Assembly: GCA_030549335.1 (NCBI GenBank)
Contig: CM060188.1
Coordinates: 10,540,001 to 10,604,000, forward strand
Source: Pontederia crassipes
Lineage: Eukaryota; Streptophyta; Magnoliopsida; Commelinales; Pontederiaceae
Length of the DNA: 64,000 nt
Reading direction: 5' to 3'
The notes beneath the pieces are model-generated. The model saw nothing but the letters and a program-made list of their open reading frames with translations, was not told where the DNA came from and did not search any database. Shown one piece after another: positions 1 to 61,185 of this stretch. The first letter of the stretch is position 1, and the number at the start of each line of letters is the position of its first letter. A program made the translations under genes and the position numbers.

Positions 1-2736
1 GGAGACCTCGACGGCGTGCGGCAGATCCTAGGAGAGATTGACGCGCAGATGACGGGAACTCCCGGTGGTGCGGAGTTCGACGCGGAGGTCGCTGAGATCC
101 GGGCGGCAGTCGTGAATGAAGTCAACGAGGTCGACGAGACGGCGTTGTTCATCGCTGCCGAGAAGGGCTTCCTGGACGTGGTGGTGGAGCTGCTCAAGTA
201 CTCCGATCGGGAGAGCCTTGCAAGGAAGAACAAGTCCTCATTCGATCCTCTCCATGTGGCCACGAGAGAAGGTCATCGAGGTGAGCGGAAGCCATTGAAT
301 TGCTCTTCGTAATGTTCTCATAAAAATTCCGCCTTTTGCAAATTTTCTCTATTGCACTGGCTTAGAACAATAACAATAAGCAAGTTCTGGTAGTACAACA
401 AAAGGTACAACTTTGGAAGCAAACTTGCCGACAAGGACCAGATGTTCCTGTAAACTTTGAGATTAATCAGAAACAGTCGAAGTATAAATCTTGTGGCTTT
501 GTCGTGGGATGGGTAATTCAGAGATGTAAAAACATATATGTCCTCATGTTGTAGCATCCCATGATTCACACTTTTATCTGAAAGTACATCGTTTCTTTGG
601 GTTTTGTCTTCTATTTGTTATAAATTGAATTCCTGCATCTTCTATCTGCACCTCCTTGACATTCATTGCTGTTTCTTTTTGCTTCATCTGTCTAGTCTTT
701 TTTATGGGGACTGTCTCTTACTGTAATCTTTTAAATTTTAGGGTAGCATTGGGGTACCTTACTAGTAAGTTTACCTAGCTTTCCTCTTTAGTTCTGCAGT
801 ACTGAATTTCTCTTTGATTGCTTTTAAAGTTGTACTTGAGGAATCTCAAAGAACTTCATTGAATGTTTAGATTGATATGCTTTAGGAATCACGAGTTTAA
901 AAAGGTAAATGTGTTTCAAAATCTAATTACTCCCTCTGATACTAGATTAGTACAACAGAAACATCAATTCTTTAGTTGTTTCCGGGAGTTTCTTTTTTAT
1001 CAAGAATAAGTATAATAGAGAAATTACAGTAGCACATCACGATGTTATCGCGCATAATCACCAATTAAAGCTCAGGACACAACCAAGAACCATCTATTTT
1101 AGTGTGATGTTGGCAGCATATTCCTCTCAAGTTTTTTGTTGTATGTGGAAAATATTCAGGAAGTTCACTAATTATTAGTCGTATACAGCAATAATCCAGG
1201 TACTTTTGGATCATGACCCAACCCTTGTCAAGACATTTGGTCAATCAAATGCAACTCCCCTTATCACTGCAACAATAAGAGGTCACACTGAAATTGTCAA
1301 CCTATTGCTTGACCGAGATTCAAGCTTGATTGAGCTAACAAAGAACAATGGAAAAAATGCTCTTCATTTTGCCGCACGGCAAGGGCATGTAGAAATTGTA
1401 AGAGCATTGCTTGCAAAAGATCCACAGCTTGCCAGAAGAACTGATAAAAAGGGCCAAACTGCTTTGCACATGGCAGTCAAAGGAACAAACTGTGATGTGG
1501 TTAAAGCACTCGTGGAGGCTGATCCAGCCATTGTAATGCTTCCGGATAGAGCGGGAAACACGGCTTTACACATAGCAACAAGGAAAAAAAGAGCAGAGGT
1601 ATCATTCTTGAGCTCTTCTGTGATTATCATTTTACTGTATTTTTACTACTATCTCTGGATGAATTACAGTTCATTCGCTGGTTTCATTTTTGCTCGGTGA
1701 ATATTAGTCAAATTTGTTTATTTTCTTCTTTCTACTTTGTGATGTCCTATGTCAATGATGGATGTTCAGTCCCAGATATGATCTTAAAATCATTGTTCTT
1801 TTATATTGACAATTTGTAAAGGTCATTATGGGCATGAACCAGTTTCAAACTCTATGGAATCATATTCTTTCTCAGTATATTTTGAAATTTTCACTTTTGC
1901 AGATAGTAAATTTTCTGCTCCTCCTGCCGGATACACATGTGAATGCTCTGACAAGAGATCATAAAACTGCATTCGATATTGCTGAAGGGCTGCCGCTATC
2001 AGAAGAGTCTGCTGAGATTAAGGAATCCTTGTCTCGCCATGGTGCAGTTAGAGCCAACGAACTAAATCAACCACGAGATGAATTGAGGAATACTGTGACC
2101 CAGATAAAAAAAGATGTCCATATTCAGCTAGAACAGACAAGGAAAACAAACAAGAATGTCCATGGCATCGCAAAGGATCTTAGGAAGCTTCACAGGATAG
2201 GCATAAATAATGCCACAAACTCTGTTACTGTGGTGGCTGTTCTCTTCGCAACCGTGGCATTTGCAGCCATCTTTACAGTGCCCGGAGGAACTAATGACGA
2301 CGGAACAGCAGTAGTTCTGGAAAGAGCATCGTTCAAGATATTTTTCATTTTCAATGCAATTGCACTCTTCACTTCTTTGGCTGTGGTGGTGGTCCAGATA
2401 ACCCTTGTCAGAGGAGAGACGAAAGCGGAGAGGCGGGTTGTTGAGATCATCAACAAGTTGATGTGGTTGGCTTCTGTGTGCACTACTGTGGCTTTTATAG
2501 CATCCTGTTACATTGTGGTTGACCGGCACTACCAGTGGGCAGCTATTTTGGTAACACTCATAGGAGGACTGACAATAGCTGGTGTTCTTGGGACCATGAC
2601 TTTCTATGTTGTAAAGTCCAAACGCAATCGTTCCATTAGGAAGAGGGAGAAATATTCAAGGAAAAGTTGCTCCAACTCCTGGAATCACAACTCTGAGATA
2701 TCTGACTCAGAGGTTGACAGGATTTATGCCATTTGA
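1..2736 (+). CDS. Ankyrin-repeat protein with PGG domain, ITN1-like (5' partial)
   Basis: Exons: <1-280, 1189-1598, 1903-2736; phases join cleanly (Gly-His-Arg|Ala-Ile-Ile-Gln-Val-Leu-Leu across intron 1, phase 0 at intron 2). The window begins inside exon 1, so the start is missing; 507 residues are visible. The first ~270 residues are ankyrin repeats, with motifs such as NGKNALHFAARQGHVEIV and GQTALHMAVKG. The C-terminal third carries the PGG domain (FAAIFTVPGGTNDDGTAV, around visible residue 355) and four hydrophobic stretches (roughly 338-355, 375-400, 418-437, 442-467), followed by a basic, Ser-rich tail. Proteins of this plan, such as Arabidopsis ITN1, sit in the plasma membrane with cytosolic ankyrins and are tied to salt/ABA signalling and defence; that role here is inference from the family. 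The last exon reads through to TGA at 2734-2736 without damage, so the gene looks functional. Confidence 0.93.
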
Positions 2737-10059: not shown

Positions 10060-10437
10060 TCAAGCACCTGTTACGTGCATTCCAAAACGAGCAGAGAGTT
10101 CAGCTTAACGCAATTAAACGTCAATCGACACATGCATATAGAACTTACTGCAGGTGATTGCGGGGACGTGGCACATGAGCGGCAGGCGAGAGATGATGTC
10201 GAGCGCACTGCAGGCGCAGGTCTGGTTGATGTTGGCCACAGATCCGCAGCACTCCTGGCTGGGGGTGCCGGTGCCGCCGGGGACCAGGTACGGCGCGCAG
10301 GCCATCAGCTGCCCGATGTGGGCGGCGCAGTCCTGAGACCGCGCCACCTGAGCATGCCAAGACAGCGCCGTGAGCAGCACCGCCACCGCCAACAACAGCG
10401 GCCTGGATACGCCGGAGGTGACCTTAGCAGCAGCCAT
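10060..10437 (-). CDS. Non-specific lipid-transfer protein (8-cysteine motif), small secreted
   Basis: Exons on the minus strand: 10437-10149 and 10067-10060; product 98 residues. An N-terminal signal peptide (MAAAKVTSGVSRPLLLAVAV...) with likely cleavage just before Gln-Asp-Cys precedes a complete eight-cysteine motif: C, MAC, ECC, CAC, LMC, ITC. Four disulfides and a hydrophobic lipid-binding cavity are expected in this family; proteins of this group act in cuticle, pollen wall or membrane lipid traffic outside the cell. The second exon is only 8 nt and adds Ser-Ala-stop after the last cysteine; the donor (GTAAGT) and acceptor (CAG) both fit. An upstream in-frame extension to 10533 exists, but the methionine at 10437 directly precedes the signal peptide and is preferred. 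Confidence 0.88.
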
Positions 10438-12492: not shown

Positions 12493-15400
12493 ATGAAGCA
12501 GCTCTACAAGCAGCCCAGCATCAACCAGCCCCAGATCCCCACCTACGCCTCCAAGCCTGCGAAGCAGCCGACCCACCATCACCACCGCTCCTCTGCCTCC
12601 GGCACCTCCTCCTTCCTCCGCTCCGCCGCCGGGTACCTCCTCCGAGAGCAGCGCCTCCTCTTCGTGCTCGCGGGCGCCCTCATCGCCTCCACCTTCTTCC
12701 TCCTTCAACCCTTCTACTCCTCCTCCCTCTCCGCCTCCGCGTCGACCGCCGCCGGCACCGTCCACCGGCACCATGTCTTCCGCCATCCCTCTACCATCTC
12801 CTCCTACGGCACCGGCGTTGAGGCGACGGCCGGGAGGAGGGTGCCGGTGGGGCTGAGGAAGCCATCGAAGCGGATCGTGGTGACAGGAGGGGCGGGGTTC
12901 GTCGGGAGCCACCTCGTTGACAAGCTGATCGAGAGGGGGGACAGCGTGATCGTAATCGACAACTTCTTCACCGGCCGGAAGGACAACGTCGTCCACCACT
13001 TCGGAAACCCGAGGTTCGAGCTCATCCGACACGACGTCGTTGAGCCGATCTTGCTGGAGGTCGACCAGATCTACCACCTGGCGTGCCCGGCGTCGCCGGT
13101 GCACTACAAGTTCAATCCCATCAAGACCATCATATCCTTCTCTTGATTTCATTTTGGCTGCGTGTTTTCTGATCTGAATACGATTTCAAATCTTGATCTG
13201 TAGGACAGCCGTTGACTTCTTACTGCACTCACCATTGTGACATTATCATTTCTTACATGAGCCCAGATGTGCAAAAAAATTTAGTGCAAGACGAGATCCC
13301 AGGTTGCGAAACTTTTGGTTTTAGGTTGAGTCTCTATTAGCTCTTTTATAGCTTTAGTTCAGAGGCTATGATGTTCTAAATTGCTTCGAAGATTCCCTGC
13401 TTAGCTATTCAAGGTAGAATCTGATATTGTGTGTCTGTTTATTGGGTTGGAGTGAATTATATCGTATGCCTCTTACTTATTTTCATGAATTCCTGATGTC
13501 ACTGATTGTGCTAAACGGATGTTCATAGACGAAGGCACATTCTTTGAAACCTAAGGGACCGAATTGGTAGAATTAGTATGAATTTTATCATTGTATGAAT
13601 AGAAGTGTCAAAATAAGGAAGCCAGGAGACAAATATATGACCCCCTAAAAAAAGATAGTTATCATGGTATTGTTCTACTTGATTCCGGTACCTTTCTTAA
13701 CTTGTTTTATTACTTGTAAAGATGTCATTTTCAATATAGTTGTGGATCAAGTGTTACTTTGATGCTTTGGTGACCACAAGGTCTCAACCTCTCAGGTTCC
13801 GATCACAAAAACATTTTTAATGAGTGAGCAACACGAGAGTGCATATATATGCTCCTCATAGACAATTATCTAGAAGACACTTGACACACAATGCTTAACA
13901 GTGCCTTCTCTTTTTTTTATAAGAAACAGTTCTTGGTTTGGAAGAATTGCTTTGTGACCTTAACATTTTATTACAAGACAAATGTGATGGGAACATTGAA
14001 CATGCTCGGGTTAGCAAAGAGAATTGGAGCCCGGTTTCTCTTGACAAGTACAAGTGAGGTTTATGGTGACCCACTCGAGCATCCTCAGAAGGAGACTTAC
14101 TGGGGTCATGTTAACCCTATAGGTTAGTAGTTCATCACCTTTGGTCTTCCATGTTTTGAGTTCCTTCAATTGTAGCTCTTCTAAGATTTAGTATGCATCA
14201 TCAGGTGTGAGGAGTTGTTATGATGAAGGAAAAAGAACTGCAGAAACTTTGACCATGGATTACCATCGAGGTGCAGATGTTGAGGTAACTTGGTCCTAGG
14301 CTCAGAATACTAATTGGCCTGACAGTAGTTATATTTATCGTCACAATTAGCCAAACCAAATATTGTGTTTCCTTGAACTACAGATGAAATTATTCATTTC
14401 TAACTCATTATGTTTTGCTAAAGTATGTATTCCCATTTTGGATAAATATACTCTTGAGGCCCCAAACTGTGTAGTTTGTATTCATGTTGTGATAAATAAC
14501 TCTTTCTACTGATAATACTTTTTCCTTGTGGCTCTATTTGGGAAGGCATGTGATTATGGTGTTACATTAACTCTTGCCTCTGTGCAGTTCCGGTTCTATC
14601 CAGTGGGACAATCTTCCAAAACTATCATAGAACAGATTCTGATCTGTAGATTTTCTTTTTAGGGACTCTGATCTGTAAAATTTAATTTGATATGGCATAT
14701 TTTGAGCTCAAGTTATGAAATGCCAAACACCATGCTTTAAAGGAACTTCTTATCAAGTCCCTTTGCCTGTTGGTGATGTTAGGTAATATTGCATATGAGC
14801 TTGGACACCTGTCACTAGTAATTTCAGTTAAAGCTTTTGGTGCCTCGAAACGTATTGCATTCTTTGGAATGCCATGATTTGTCGTCAAATTAATCTTGTA
14901 TAAGCTCTAAGTAAGTTGGAAAAGAGACCCTGGTGTATTGAACCTTTGAGGGGAAAAAGAAATTGATTGAATTCAACTGTATTATGTTATAATAATTGGA
15001 GATATCCAAGCCTGTTGACTGTCCTATCATATGCATGCATAAGCCAATATCTCTTCGGAGACATCATTGGGGTTACCATTCCCCGCTTTGAATTTTAACC
15101 TTCTTTTTATTCATTACTGTACTAAGGTTATGCCTTCTTTTTTCACCAAAAAAAAATGCATGCATAAGCCAGTGAAAAAGATTGTGATTTCTTGCATGAG
15201 TGCATTCTGACTTGTGTATTACAATTTGTATGAATAAACAACTAGAAAGTTCCATCTGACTTTGACTTTTTTTGTTCTTTTTTTTGGGTTGATGCTAACT
15301 CCTTCATTGGTTAAAATTCTATGTACCACATGAGATGTCTTGATCTTGTACTGCCATATGCCTCCTCTTGTCAGCATTTGTTTTCTTTGTCAACTTTCCA

Positions 15401-16563
15401 TTTCTTTGGAGTAATATTTATGGAACTGAAGCATCACAACCATATTTCAGGTCCGTATTGCACGCATATTTAATACTTATGGCCCTCGCATGTGTCTAGA
15501 TGATGGACGTGTAGTCAGTAATTTTGTTGCGCAGGTATCTTTTTTTTGCAGTATAACGCAGGTTTCTTCTGGCTTTCAAGCATTAAAATCATACTATGTA
15601 ATAAAACACTCATATTCCATGATTTTCAGGCCCTCCGTAAACAACCAATGACAGTTTATGGTGATGGCAAGCAAACCCGAAGTTTCCAATATGTTTCAGA
15701 CTTGGTATGAAATATTGTTTCTGCAAGGGACAATCTCAACAATATTTCCAGCCGTGTTATGTTTTAGTCATTCATATCTTTTTCATTCACTCTATGTTGC
15801 AACTTTATTTGTTTCAGTCATTCATTATATTTTTCTTCATTCACTCTATGTTGCATCTTTTTTATTCATATAACTCATTTTTATCTTGTGATTCAGCATA
15901 GTTATCAACTTATCATAATTTGGGACATCCGTAGGTTTCGACATAAGTGACATAAATGTGCATTTTCTTATGACATGACATATATGTACAATCATCGAAG
16001 ATTCCTTTTAGAAACTTGTCATGTGTTGATACTGTCTTACACCTCCATTATCCAAAACAATTAGCTCTGAAAATGCTCTTGCAATGTAAATTTCTCTTTT
16101 CTTTTCCTGCACAAATCCATCAGGTCGATGGACTGATAGCACTGATGGAAGGTGAACATATTGGACCATTCAATTTGGGGAATCCAGGGGAGTTCACCAT
16201 GCTGGAGTTAGCTGAGGTATGCTCAGGACAACTATATATTGTTTCTACCTTCTTACTAACCTAAAACCTAAAAAATGTCCTATACCCTATCTTATATCCT
16301 CCTATATCCTATAATAGAACTTAGATATTATATCTTCTGTTTTGTTCTAAAATGTGGTCAACTTTCTTCAGGTTGTGAAAGAGACAATTGACCCTTCTGC
16401 AACGATTGAGTTCAAACCCAACACTGAAGACGACCCTCATATGAGAAAACCTGATATCACAAAGGCAAAAGAACTGCTTAACTGGGAGCCAAAGATTACG
16501 TTGCGCCAAGGACTACCACGAATGGTGTCCGACTTCCAGAAACGCCTGGAAGACTTGAAATAA
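12493..16563 (+). CDS. UXS: UDP-glucuronic acid decarboxylase (UDP-xylose synthase), membrane-anchored type
   Basis: Exons: 12493-13131, 13975-14122, 14205-14284, 15451-15534, 15630-15704, 16124-16216, 16372-16563; 436 residues with all phases joining. The enzyme converts UDP-glucuronate to UDP-xylose, the xylosyl donor for xylan and other wall glycans. An N-terminal transmembrane segment (about residues 55-71) after a short cytosolic tail marks the type II Golgi form. The short-chain dehydrogenase fold follows: NAD-binding GGAGFVGSH at 132-140, TSTSEVYGD around 237-244, the catalytic Tyr-Lys pair in SCYDEGKR (Y268, K272), then [11 protein letters not shown] and [14 protein letters not shown]. 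Intron 1 is an AT-AC U12 intron; the others are GT-AG. Exon 1 is much more GC-rich than the rest. No damage is seen. It is tail-to-tail with the dirigent gene, 440 bp apart. Confidence 0.97.
13132..13974 (+). other. U12-type AT-AC intron of UXS
   Basis: The intron begins ATATCCTT, the exact U12 5' splice consensus, and ends TTAC. CCTTAAC, the U12 branch-point consensus, lies about 10 nt before the 3' end (13958-13964). There is no usable GT donor at the needed position: the reading frame requires ...Lys-Thr-Ile | Lys-Thr-Asn, which is met only by AT...AC ends. Removal is expected to need the minor spliceosome (U11/U12/U4atac/U6atac). Confidence 0.93.
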
Positions 16564-17002: not shown

Positions 17003-17917
17003 TTAGGAGAGATAGATGGAGAACTGCAAGAGGGTTTCCGCAACATCCTCAGCTGCATTCTGCTGCCCAGTTGGATGAACAGCGCGAATGGTGGCATATC
17101 CTTTGGCGTTCAAATACTTTCCTGTGCCTCCAACTATGGCGACGTTGGACTCTGCAACAGTTGTGCAGTAGACGCCGAAGAAACTGAGGGTGTCCGCGCA
17201 GCCTTCGCCGCCTCCATGGAAGGCGGTCGTCATCATCAGCGTCATACTGGTTCCATCTTTGGAGCTCGCCACGAAGAACCCCTGGGCTCTTCCGACACTG
17301 TTGGAGCCCTTCTCCTCCCCTTCGGCGAGCTCCTCGTCAATGGCAGCAGTGGTCGTGCCAAACAGAAGACTACTCTGCGAAGCTGCCCCTGCTGCAGGAG
17401 AGCTCAATGCATTGCCCATTGGAGCAGTAGTGCTTGCAGGTTTGACACCATTAGTATTGTCATGGATATGAGCTGGAAGTAACATTGAGGCGCCAAGTAC
17501 ATCGTGCATGAAAAATGTCAAAGGTTGATCAGTTCCTGCGGCTCCGCCGACAATGAGCGGCTGCTGCACCGAAGGGGAAACTTCTGGTGGAGTCATCATG
17601 GTAGGGATGGTTGCAGGATCAGCAGGCTGAGGGGTAACAACCGACATCGGTGCCATTGATGATAGTGGACTGTTTGCTGCAGGGCTGGCAGCATTTGCCT
17701 GCGAGGGTGCAGAGGGAGAGGCAACAGCTGACGGATCAGTTGCTCCGGGGTTTGCATGATGAGGTTGTGGTACCGTGGCTGCCGGTGCAGCCGCTGGAAT
17801 CGGCTGCTCATCGAGGAGGATGCGAGATGAGCTGATGCACTCTGTCATGGCAAACAACAACACCAAGTACATTGCTGTTGCAAATGCTGTCGACCTGGAA
17901 TCGGGGTGTTTGGCCAT
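17003..17917 (-). CDS. Dirigent protein with long Ala/Pro-rich linker (ESB1/DIR-like)
   Basis: Single exon, 304 residues. A hydrophobic segment at residues 11-30 looks like a secretion signal. Residues ~36-130 form a low-complexity Ala/Pro/Ser linker. The dirigent domain spans ~132-302, from LTFFMHDVLGAS through FGTTTAAIDEEL, VGRAQGFFVASSKDG, FFGVYC and IVGGTGKYLNAKGYATIRAV to FSIYLS. Dirigent proteins steer radical coupling of phenoxy radicals; members with this N-terminal extension (Arabidopsis ESB1/DIR10 and relatives) act at Casparian strips and in lignin deposition. The start at 17917 was chosen because it gives the signal peptide; an upstream in-frame extension to 18013 crosses the TATA box at 17997-18004. 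The exact wall role is inference. Confidence 0.93.
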   Translation of the reverse strand: MAKHPDSRSTAFATAMYLVLLFAMTECISSSRILLDEQPIPAAAPAATVPQPHHANPGATDPSAVASPSAPSQANAASPAANSPLSSMAPMSVVTPQPADPATIPTMMTPPEVSPSVQQPLIVGGAAGTDQPLTFFMHDVLGASMLLPAHIHDNTNGVKPASTTAPMGNALSSPAAGAASQSSLLFGTTTAAIDEELAEGEEKGSNSVGRAQGFFVASSKDGTSMTLMMTTAFHGGGEGCADTLSFFGVYCTTVAESNVAIVGGTGKYLNAKGYATIRAVHPTGQQNAAEDVAETLLQFSIYLS

Positions 17918-59283: not shown

Positions 59284-61185
59284 ATGGATCTCGACTTGAC
59301 TCCCCGTTTCTCGAAGAAAGCGTACGGTGGAGACCGAGGATCGTACTACACGTGATGCAGCAAGGAGCTCCCTATGCTCCTTGCCTTGGAAAAACGTGGC
59401 CTCGCCCTTCCAAGCTATTCCGACTCGGCCAAGGTGGCCTACGTCCTTCAAGGTGAAACATGCACGCCAATTCCCCTCATCTGCAAGCTTGATAATTCCT
59501 TACTTGTGTTAACTTGAATCTTAATTAGACCATGAGAAATATTTTGTTGTATACAATCTCTCATCTTGAATTAGATATTTTAAACTTTTCACATCTATTT
59601 AATCCATTTTTTTTCATTACAAGCACCTTACTTTAGCAACGTGAATATGACATATAACTTTTATATTCTAGATTTGTTATTCTGCATCAAATAAAATTTG
59701 ATATTGTCATGCATAAGTTAGCGACTTCTTTTAAAAAATAGAATCCCTTTTGTGATTAGGTGATTTCTTTGACAAAAAAAGGGAATTCTAGATGCTTTTA
59801 TCTTGATAAGATTTTAATCATTTATGCATTTATCTAAAAGATCCATGCCAAGGATGGGTGGATAATGTTTGTTTAAGGAAATGGTAGAAAAATTGTAGGA
59901 GGCCTTGAGTGAAAGTTCAATATCAAAATTGGGCATGCATCTATCAATTGCAGTAGTCTCCAACATTGTTCACCTCTTTAGAAAAATATATCTTAGAACC
60001 ACATAGATTAAGAATTGCTTGCAATGTCACTACAGTTACTAAGCCTCCATTTTTTCATGTTAAATTATTGTGGTTGATTGTCATGCATATTTCTACATTA
60101 TGATTGTCTAGCATATATGTGCACATTTCTTATTGGCAAGTGCCATAGTTATAAAACTAATGTTAAGAACCTTGAGGATATATATAAACTGACAAATGCT
60201 TTAAGTGGCTGTAGGAAGTGGAACTTTTGGAATTGTGCTACCGGAGGCCACCAAGGAGAAGGTGATCACTATCAAGAAGGGCGATGCCATTGCCCTTCCA
60301 TTCGGTGTGGTCACCTAGTGGTTCAATCCCAATGACATTGAGCTCATCGTATTGTTCTTGGGAGAGACTTCAAAGGGCCACACGGTCGGACAATTCAACA
60401 ACTTCCAAATCACTGGTGCTAATGGCATCTTCACCGGCTTCAGCCCCGAGTTCGTGGGCCGTGCTTGGGACCTCACCGTGGAGGAGGTCCACAACCTCGT
60501 CCATAGCCAAGCTAACTCCGGCATCATCAAGGTGAAGGACGACCAAGCCATGCCGCAGCCCTCGGCCGACGAAAGGGAAGGCATGGCCTTGAATTGCGAG
60601 GAGGCACCCTTGGACGTGGACATCAAGAATGGCGGGTGCGTTGTGGTGCTGAACACCAAGAACTTGCCATTGGTCGGCGAGGTAGGGCTCGGCGCCGACC
60701 TCGTGAGGTTGAATGGTCATGCCATGTGCTCCCCGGGCTTCTCTTGTGACTCTGCCTTCCAGGTAACATATGTTGTCAGGGGGAGCGGTCGTGTGCAGAT
60801 CGTGGGAATTGATGGCAAGAGGGTACTTGAGACCCATGTCAAAGCCGGATGCCTCTTCATCGTTCCTAGATTCTTTGTTGTGTCAAAGATTGCCGATGAT
60901 GACGGCATGGACTTGTTCTCTATCATCACCACTCCTAAGTAAGTTGAATAGCCTTCACCTTGTTTGTTCCATGACTTAGCTGTTGATGGCATACGACAGC
61001 GTACCTAAAATTTATTTGTGAAATTGCAGCCCTGTGTTTAGTCATCTGGCAGGAAGGACTTCGGTGTGGAAGGCCATGTCCTCAGAACTGTTGCAGGTCT
61101 CTTTCAATATCACGCCTGAGTTGGAGCAGAAGTTTAGGTCAACAAGGACCTCGAATGAAATCTTCTTCCCACCTGCAAATTAAGT
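59284..61185 (+). pseudogene. 11S-globulin-like two-cupin protein gene, disabled
   Basis: Exons: 59284-59452, 60215-60938, 61031-61185; splice sites and phases are still intact. The product would resemble the ~355-residue two-cupin proteins annotated as glutelin type-D 1-like or 11S-like (Arabidopsis AT1G07750/AT2G28680 group): MDLDLTPRFSKKAYGGD, then GSGTFGIVLPEATKEKV, IELIVLFLGETSKGHTVGQF, ANGIFTGFSPEFVGRAWDLT, MALNCEEAPLDVDIKNGG, MCSPGFSCDSAFQVTYVVRG, VKAGCLFIVPRFFVVSKIAD and a C terminus ending EIFFPPAN. Damage: codon 24 is TGA (59353-59355) where unit B has TGG; about 27-30 nt are missing after CCTATGCTC in exon 1; and the first Trp of the expected VVTWWFNP is TAG (60316-60318). The rest of exons 2 and 3 is open. 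Role of the family (seed or stress-related cupins) is inference; this copy is not expected to make protein. Confidence 0.9.

Follow-up and report, generated by a model that had tools for sequence, protein, structure and literature searches.

Results

The window analysed here, a stretch of 64,000 nucleotides of the Pontederia crassipes genome (C6:10540001-10604000 of the 1.13-Gb assembly), contains on its + strand a seven-exon gene at 12493-16563, for which the gene model gives a product of 436 aa. The catalytic part of this product aligns with PDB 2b69_A (E 4.5e-135, covering residues 7-319 of a 322-residue query), and the product matches two epimerase/dehydratase families of Pfam, PF16363 and PF01370. 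Such a relation to solved enzymes over the whole catalytic domain strongly supports the identification of the gene as a UDP-xylose synthase (UXS, UDP-glucuronate decarboxylase), with the activity predicted accordingly. By the gene model and the position of a 19-residue hydrophobic stretch (score 2.02), exon 1 (12493-13131) encodes the N-terminus, the membrane span and the NAD-binding motif GGAGFVG, and it ends in ...NPIKTI. Exon 2 (13975-14122) is followed by exon 3 (14205-14284), with GT-AG introns on both sides, exon 4 (15451-15534), exon 5 (15630-15704), exon 6 (16124-16216) and exon 7 (16372-16563), which carries the stop codon TAA; introns 2-6 are all GT-AG. The N-terminal hydrophobic stretch marks the product as of the membrane-bound type, with a predicted Golgi location, a type that is Golgi-localised in Arabidopsis and tobacco (PMC10631120). 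A stretch of this kind, scored for membrane-type copies only, reaches at least 2.02 in all 12 of them. Downstream of the UXS gene and facing it lies a dirigent-family gene (17003-17917, - strand; Pfam PF03018) with a long Ala/Pro-rich N-terminal part. Other reading frames in the window include two with ankyrin repeats and a PGG domain at 1206-2736 (+ strand), which are probably a single gene, a small one of the lipid-transfer/protease-inhibitor family at 10162-10437 (- strand; Pfam PF00234, PF14368) and one with a cupin domain at 60352-60942 (+ strand; Pfam PF00190).

The first intron of the UXS gene (13132-13974, 843 nt) has the form ATATCCTT...gACCTTAAC...AC, starting with ATATCCTTCT and ending with CCTTAACATTTTATTAC, so that the junctions read ...AAGACCATC|ATATCCTTCT (13132) and TGTGACCTTAACATTTTATTAC|AAGACAAAT (13975). 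It interrupts K-T-I|K-T-N between codons (phase 0). Its 5' splice site ATATCCTT (13132-13139) agrees with the U12 consensus RTATCCTT at 8/8 positions. The U12 branch-site consensus resembles TCCTTRAC, and the motif of intron 1, ACCTTAAC, matches it at 7/8 positions; its core CCTTAAC lies at 13958-13964, and the letters between this motif and the terminal AC (13973-13974) are ATTTTATT, as read by eye for a polypyrimidine tract. The original prediction had placed an AT-AC intron at 13132-13974 and, some 10 nt ahead of its acceptor, CCTTAAC; the sequence bears out both statements, with 11 nt following the branch A. This spacing falls inside the 11-13 nt reported as the optimum for U12 introns (PMC3584512). 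If the intron were retained, the protein would stop after ...KTI-ISFS at 217 aa, the last four residues being coded by the intron.

An alternative, in which the junction would be that of an ordinary U2-type GT-AG or GC-AG intron and the AT-AC ends a coincidence, was weighed by pairing all donors in 13085-13249 with all acceptors in 13800-14019. Fifteen GT-AG or GC-AG pairs within these ranges do keep the frame open, as this alternative needs, but none of the 15 gives the conserved protein stretch, which is uninterrupted in PDB 2b69 (NPIKTLKTN, no gap) and ungapped for 10 residues on each side in 92/92 prokaryotic and viral relatives that cover the site. The stretch is regained in only three registers, namely AT-AC itself and the two shifts by one base, CA-TA and TA-CA. 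The claim that only the AT-AC ends restore KTI|KTN holds once these two shifts are added, and the warning that a tool restricted to GT-AG and GC-AG introns would go wrong here is borne out, no such pair in the ranges tried rebuilding the protein. A non-canonical AC-AG pair (13126-13977) is in frame but loses three conserved residues. Together with the conservation of ATATCCTT between subfamilies described below, which does not extend to the rest of the intron, these results make a U2-type GT-AG or GC-AG junction very improbable, and we rejected the 15 open-frame pairs as the true junction. The relatives at this site came from 93 examined, the remaining one (L213) stopping short of it. L213, which matches UXS over 23 residues at the edge of a contig, had also been considered as an intron case and was dropped, as a stop in frame lies just past the match.

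Motif frequencies by themselves were found to be uninformative. The window has 7 matches to RTATCCTT where 6.15 are expected, and one match to CCTTAAC-N8-16-AC where 2.5 are expected; at such chance-level frequencies the motifs alone prove nothing, and bare counts were rejected as evidence for a U12 intron. A scan of viral contigs with the pattern AARACNATHATATCCTT returned at least 120 stretches, which were taken as chance since the pattern is too degenerate, while the stricter pattern CCNATHAARACNMTNATATCCTT had no match in the viral contigs. As the frame limits the donor of intron 1 to three registers, a match to ATATCCTT is improbable, about 5 in 100,000 by simple arithmetic with equal base frequencies. 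The coincidence of the motifs with the only frame-compatible junction is beyond chance.

The genome also carries genes for the RNAs that would recognise such an intron. Three loci for U11 snRNA exceed the Rfam cut-off, one of them confirmed; for U12 snRNA one locus exceeds the cut-off and two fall below it, and again one was confirmed. Read by eye, the start of U11, TAAAAGGG, could pair with TCCTT, and the stretch GAGTAAGG in the U12 gene could do so with CCTTAAC. Judged from these U11 and U12 genes, the host appears to possess a minor spliceosome.

To place intron 1 within its family, we took the best-scoring UXS matches in the genome, 22 genes in all, which is a lower bound, and modelled their introns by spliced alignment, some introns near gene ends being doubtful. 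Left out were the fragments at C16:29330330 (residues 1-46) and C14:53176529 (residues 229-321, five stops), as well as single-exon matches of about 27-33% identity, which were taken as other epimerases. The set comprises 12 membrane-type genes (L244-L255) and 10 cytosolic-type genes (L256-L265). In a tree of 20 of these genes the 12 membrane-type members lie on one side of a branch with support 100/100; the tree omits the cytosolic-type L260 and L264, whose modelled translation ended early, and includes L265 as a short sequence. The DNA of the two partners on a chromosome pair agrees at about 95% (range 90.9-97.5%, 11 pairs), so the number of independent loci is nearer six for the membrane type and five for the cytosolic type. 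Between one such pair a large insertion is suggested, as the intron at 228.0 was modelled at 5614 nt in L250 and at 550 nt in its partner L248.

The 12 membrane-type copies all carry ATATCCTT...AC, in each case between the same two codons. When the four members of one membrane subfamily were compared without gaps with the eight of the other (4 x 8, 32 comparisons), intron bases 1-8 are 100% identical (32/32), and identity is 34% over bases 9-16 and 29% over bases 17-60; at the 3' end the last two bases are 100% identical and the last 3-20 are 15% identical. The donors of four other introns vary beyond the first two or three bases. This is what one would expect of an intron whose donor is read by the minor spliceosome. 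Across the 22 genes, a U12 donor of at least 7/8 combined with a branch motif of 6-7/7 within 45 nt was present in 12 of 174 modelled introns, all of them at the intron 1 site; among the remaining 162 none had both signals, and seven matched the donor at 7/8 positions without a branch motif.

At the branch site the C13/C14 copies agree with the window gene in having CCTTAAC; L245, its partner on C5, has ACTTAAC at unchanged spacing, a natural branch-site variant. In the eight paralogues L248-L255, CCTTAAT stands 22 nt (two copies), 26 nt (four copies) or 35 nt (two copies) from the intron end, so that a short spacing of 11-13 nt is absent from 8 of the 12 membrane-type copies; six of the eight paralogues have an AG between CCTTAAT and AC. 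AT-AG combinations are reported to be disfavoured (PMC3584512). With CCTTAAT at 22-35 nt in eight copies and ACTTAAC in the C5 copy, the branch site is weaker evidence in copies other than that of the window and the C13/C14 pair. For the window gene, the exact frame register, the branch site and the conservation together make the call of intron 1 convincing.

The cytosolic-type genes are organised differently at this place. In each of the 10 that were taken, a GT-AG intron lies 6 nt upstream of the AT-AC site and in the same phase, following the lysine two codons before it (...K|TIKTN or K|TLKTS). A U12 donor together with the branch motif occurs in none of the introns modelled for these genes. 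Introns 148.1 and 228.0 are exactly common to the membrane-type and cytosolic-type clades. For three further membrane-clade introns the distance to a cytosolic-clade intron is 6, 2 and 8 nt, and for a sixth, modelled in 4 of the 12 copies, it is 12 nt. Three of four membrane-clade introns within 8 nt of a cytosolic-clade intron corresponds to P of about 0.01 under random placement, in a test chosen post hoc.

Discussion

Our analysis of the window indicates that intron 1 of its membrane (Golgi)-type UXS gene is almost certainly a U12-type AT-AC intron, which would be removed by the minor spliceosome. Both the class of the intron and the identity of the gene had been proposed in the original prediction, and they are strongly supported by the 8/8 donor, the branch motif, the reading frame, the conservation and the matches to 2b69 and Pfam. 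U12 introns are not defined by AT-AC ends alone (PMC3584512), which leaves room for a U2-type AT-AC intron removed by the major spliceosome. However, the features that do define U12 introns are the 5' site and the branch signal (PMC3584512), and a 5' site matching the U12 consensus at 8/8 positions with CCTTAAC at 11 nt makes a U2-type AT-AC intron hardly credible. For the U12-type intron, we propose that U11 would recognise the 5' splice site by pairing with ATATCCTT, and U12 the branch site by pairing with CCTTAAC, and that the minor spliceosome would then join codon ATC (I) to AAG (K), giving the conserved KTIKTN stretch; the transcript is presumably spliced in this way, and by the minor spliceosome. 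The AT-AC intron would have been inherited within the membrane-type clade of this genome and kept by selection on its splice signals. We take intron 1 to be an ordinary, well-supported U12-type AT-AC intron that is old within its lineage.

The relation of this intron to the GT-AG intron of the cytosolic-type genes is less clear. The exact sharing of introns 148.1 and 228.0 implies that both clades descend from an intron-bearing ancestor, and the near-coincident introns of the two clades fit either conversion with sliding or separate gain. The AT-AC intron and its cytosolic-clade counterpart may be one ancestral intron, turned in the cytosolic clade from U12 into U2 type with both ends shifted by 6 nt, a possibility to which we give appreciable weight while leaning against it. 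The two shared introns and the clustering of three of the other four within 8 nt (P about 0.01, post hoc) speak for such a conversion, and a route by way of a cryptic U2 donor close to the U12 one has been described (PMC3584512). However, conversion requires that both ends moved by exactly 6 nt, and an independent gain at an AAG|A site would look identical. A wider scenario can be offered only as a tentative and rather doubtful speculation: the membrane clade would have kept an ancestral U12 AT-AC intron, and in the cytosolic clade its place would have been taken, by conversion or replacement, by a U2 intron lying 6 nt upstream, tying the Golgi but not the cytosolic supply of UDP-xylose to the minor spliceosome; in part of the membrane clade the spacing would have lengthened to 22-35 nt, the AC end being kept and used although six of eight copies have an AG nearer to the branch motif.

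The original prediction had made the output of this cell-wall sugar enzyme depend partly on minor splicing. This is too broad, since 10/10 cytosolic-type genes have a GT-AG intron near the site and no intron with both U12 signals was modelled in them; cytosolic UXS forms are also reported to dominate xylan supply (PMC10631120). It is plausible that minor-splicing dependence, as predicted here, concerns the membrane-type UXS genes only. For annotation, this clean and frame-locked AT-AC intron means that GT-AG/GC-AG-only procedures should err in all 12 membrane-type copies. The family also provides natural contrasts for testing minor splicing, such as CCTTAAC in the window gene versus ACTTAAC in its C5 partner, a spacing of 11 versus 22-35 nt, and sister enzymes whose introns, only 6 nt apart, are of the U12 and the U2 type.

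How far this case is new depends on existing lists. The main texts of PMC2426677, PMC2846911, PMC4892727 and PMC10639083 do not mention UXS, and that of PMC6310983 does not mention xylose. Among the matches listed in the open full-text literature, a scope that excludes the main Arabidopsis U12 list, we found no paper linking UXS with U12 introns. Zhu and Brendel reportedly compiled a list of Arabidopsis U12 introns in 2003, in which UXS introns are likely to stand already. UXS intron 1 is a new, or perhaps merely unlisted, case of a known intron class.

Within that class, the window intron shares with plant U12-type AT-AC introns the ATATCCTT donor, CCTTAAC, the 11 nt spacing and the AC acceptor, with no difference seen. 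The described rarity of such introns in plants agrees with an AT-AC share of 0.06% (PMC6310983), and AT-AC introns make up 13-26% of U12 introns in four plants (PMC7367187, Table 2). As the first intron of its gene, the window intron also fits the 5' bias reported for plant minor introns (PMC10639083). The eight paralogues differ, with CCTTAAT at 22-35 nt instead of the optimal 11-13 nt. Group II (membrane-type) UXS genes of other plants, such as tobacco NtUXS, likewise have six introns, an N-terminal membrane span in most members and GGAGFVG (PMC10631120); the main text of the tobacco paper is silent on splice-site class, 'splic' and 'U12' being absent from it. In contrast, the five UXS genes reported in lotus, with one intron or none (PMC12787360), are at odds with a conserved six-intron structure. 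Finally, the Group I (cytosolic-type) genes of the same genome encode a homologous enzyme and have introns 148.1 and 228.0 at the same position and phase, but they carry more introns, and in them the K|TIKTN GT-AG intron 6 nt upstream takes the place of the AT-AC intron.
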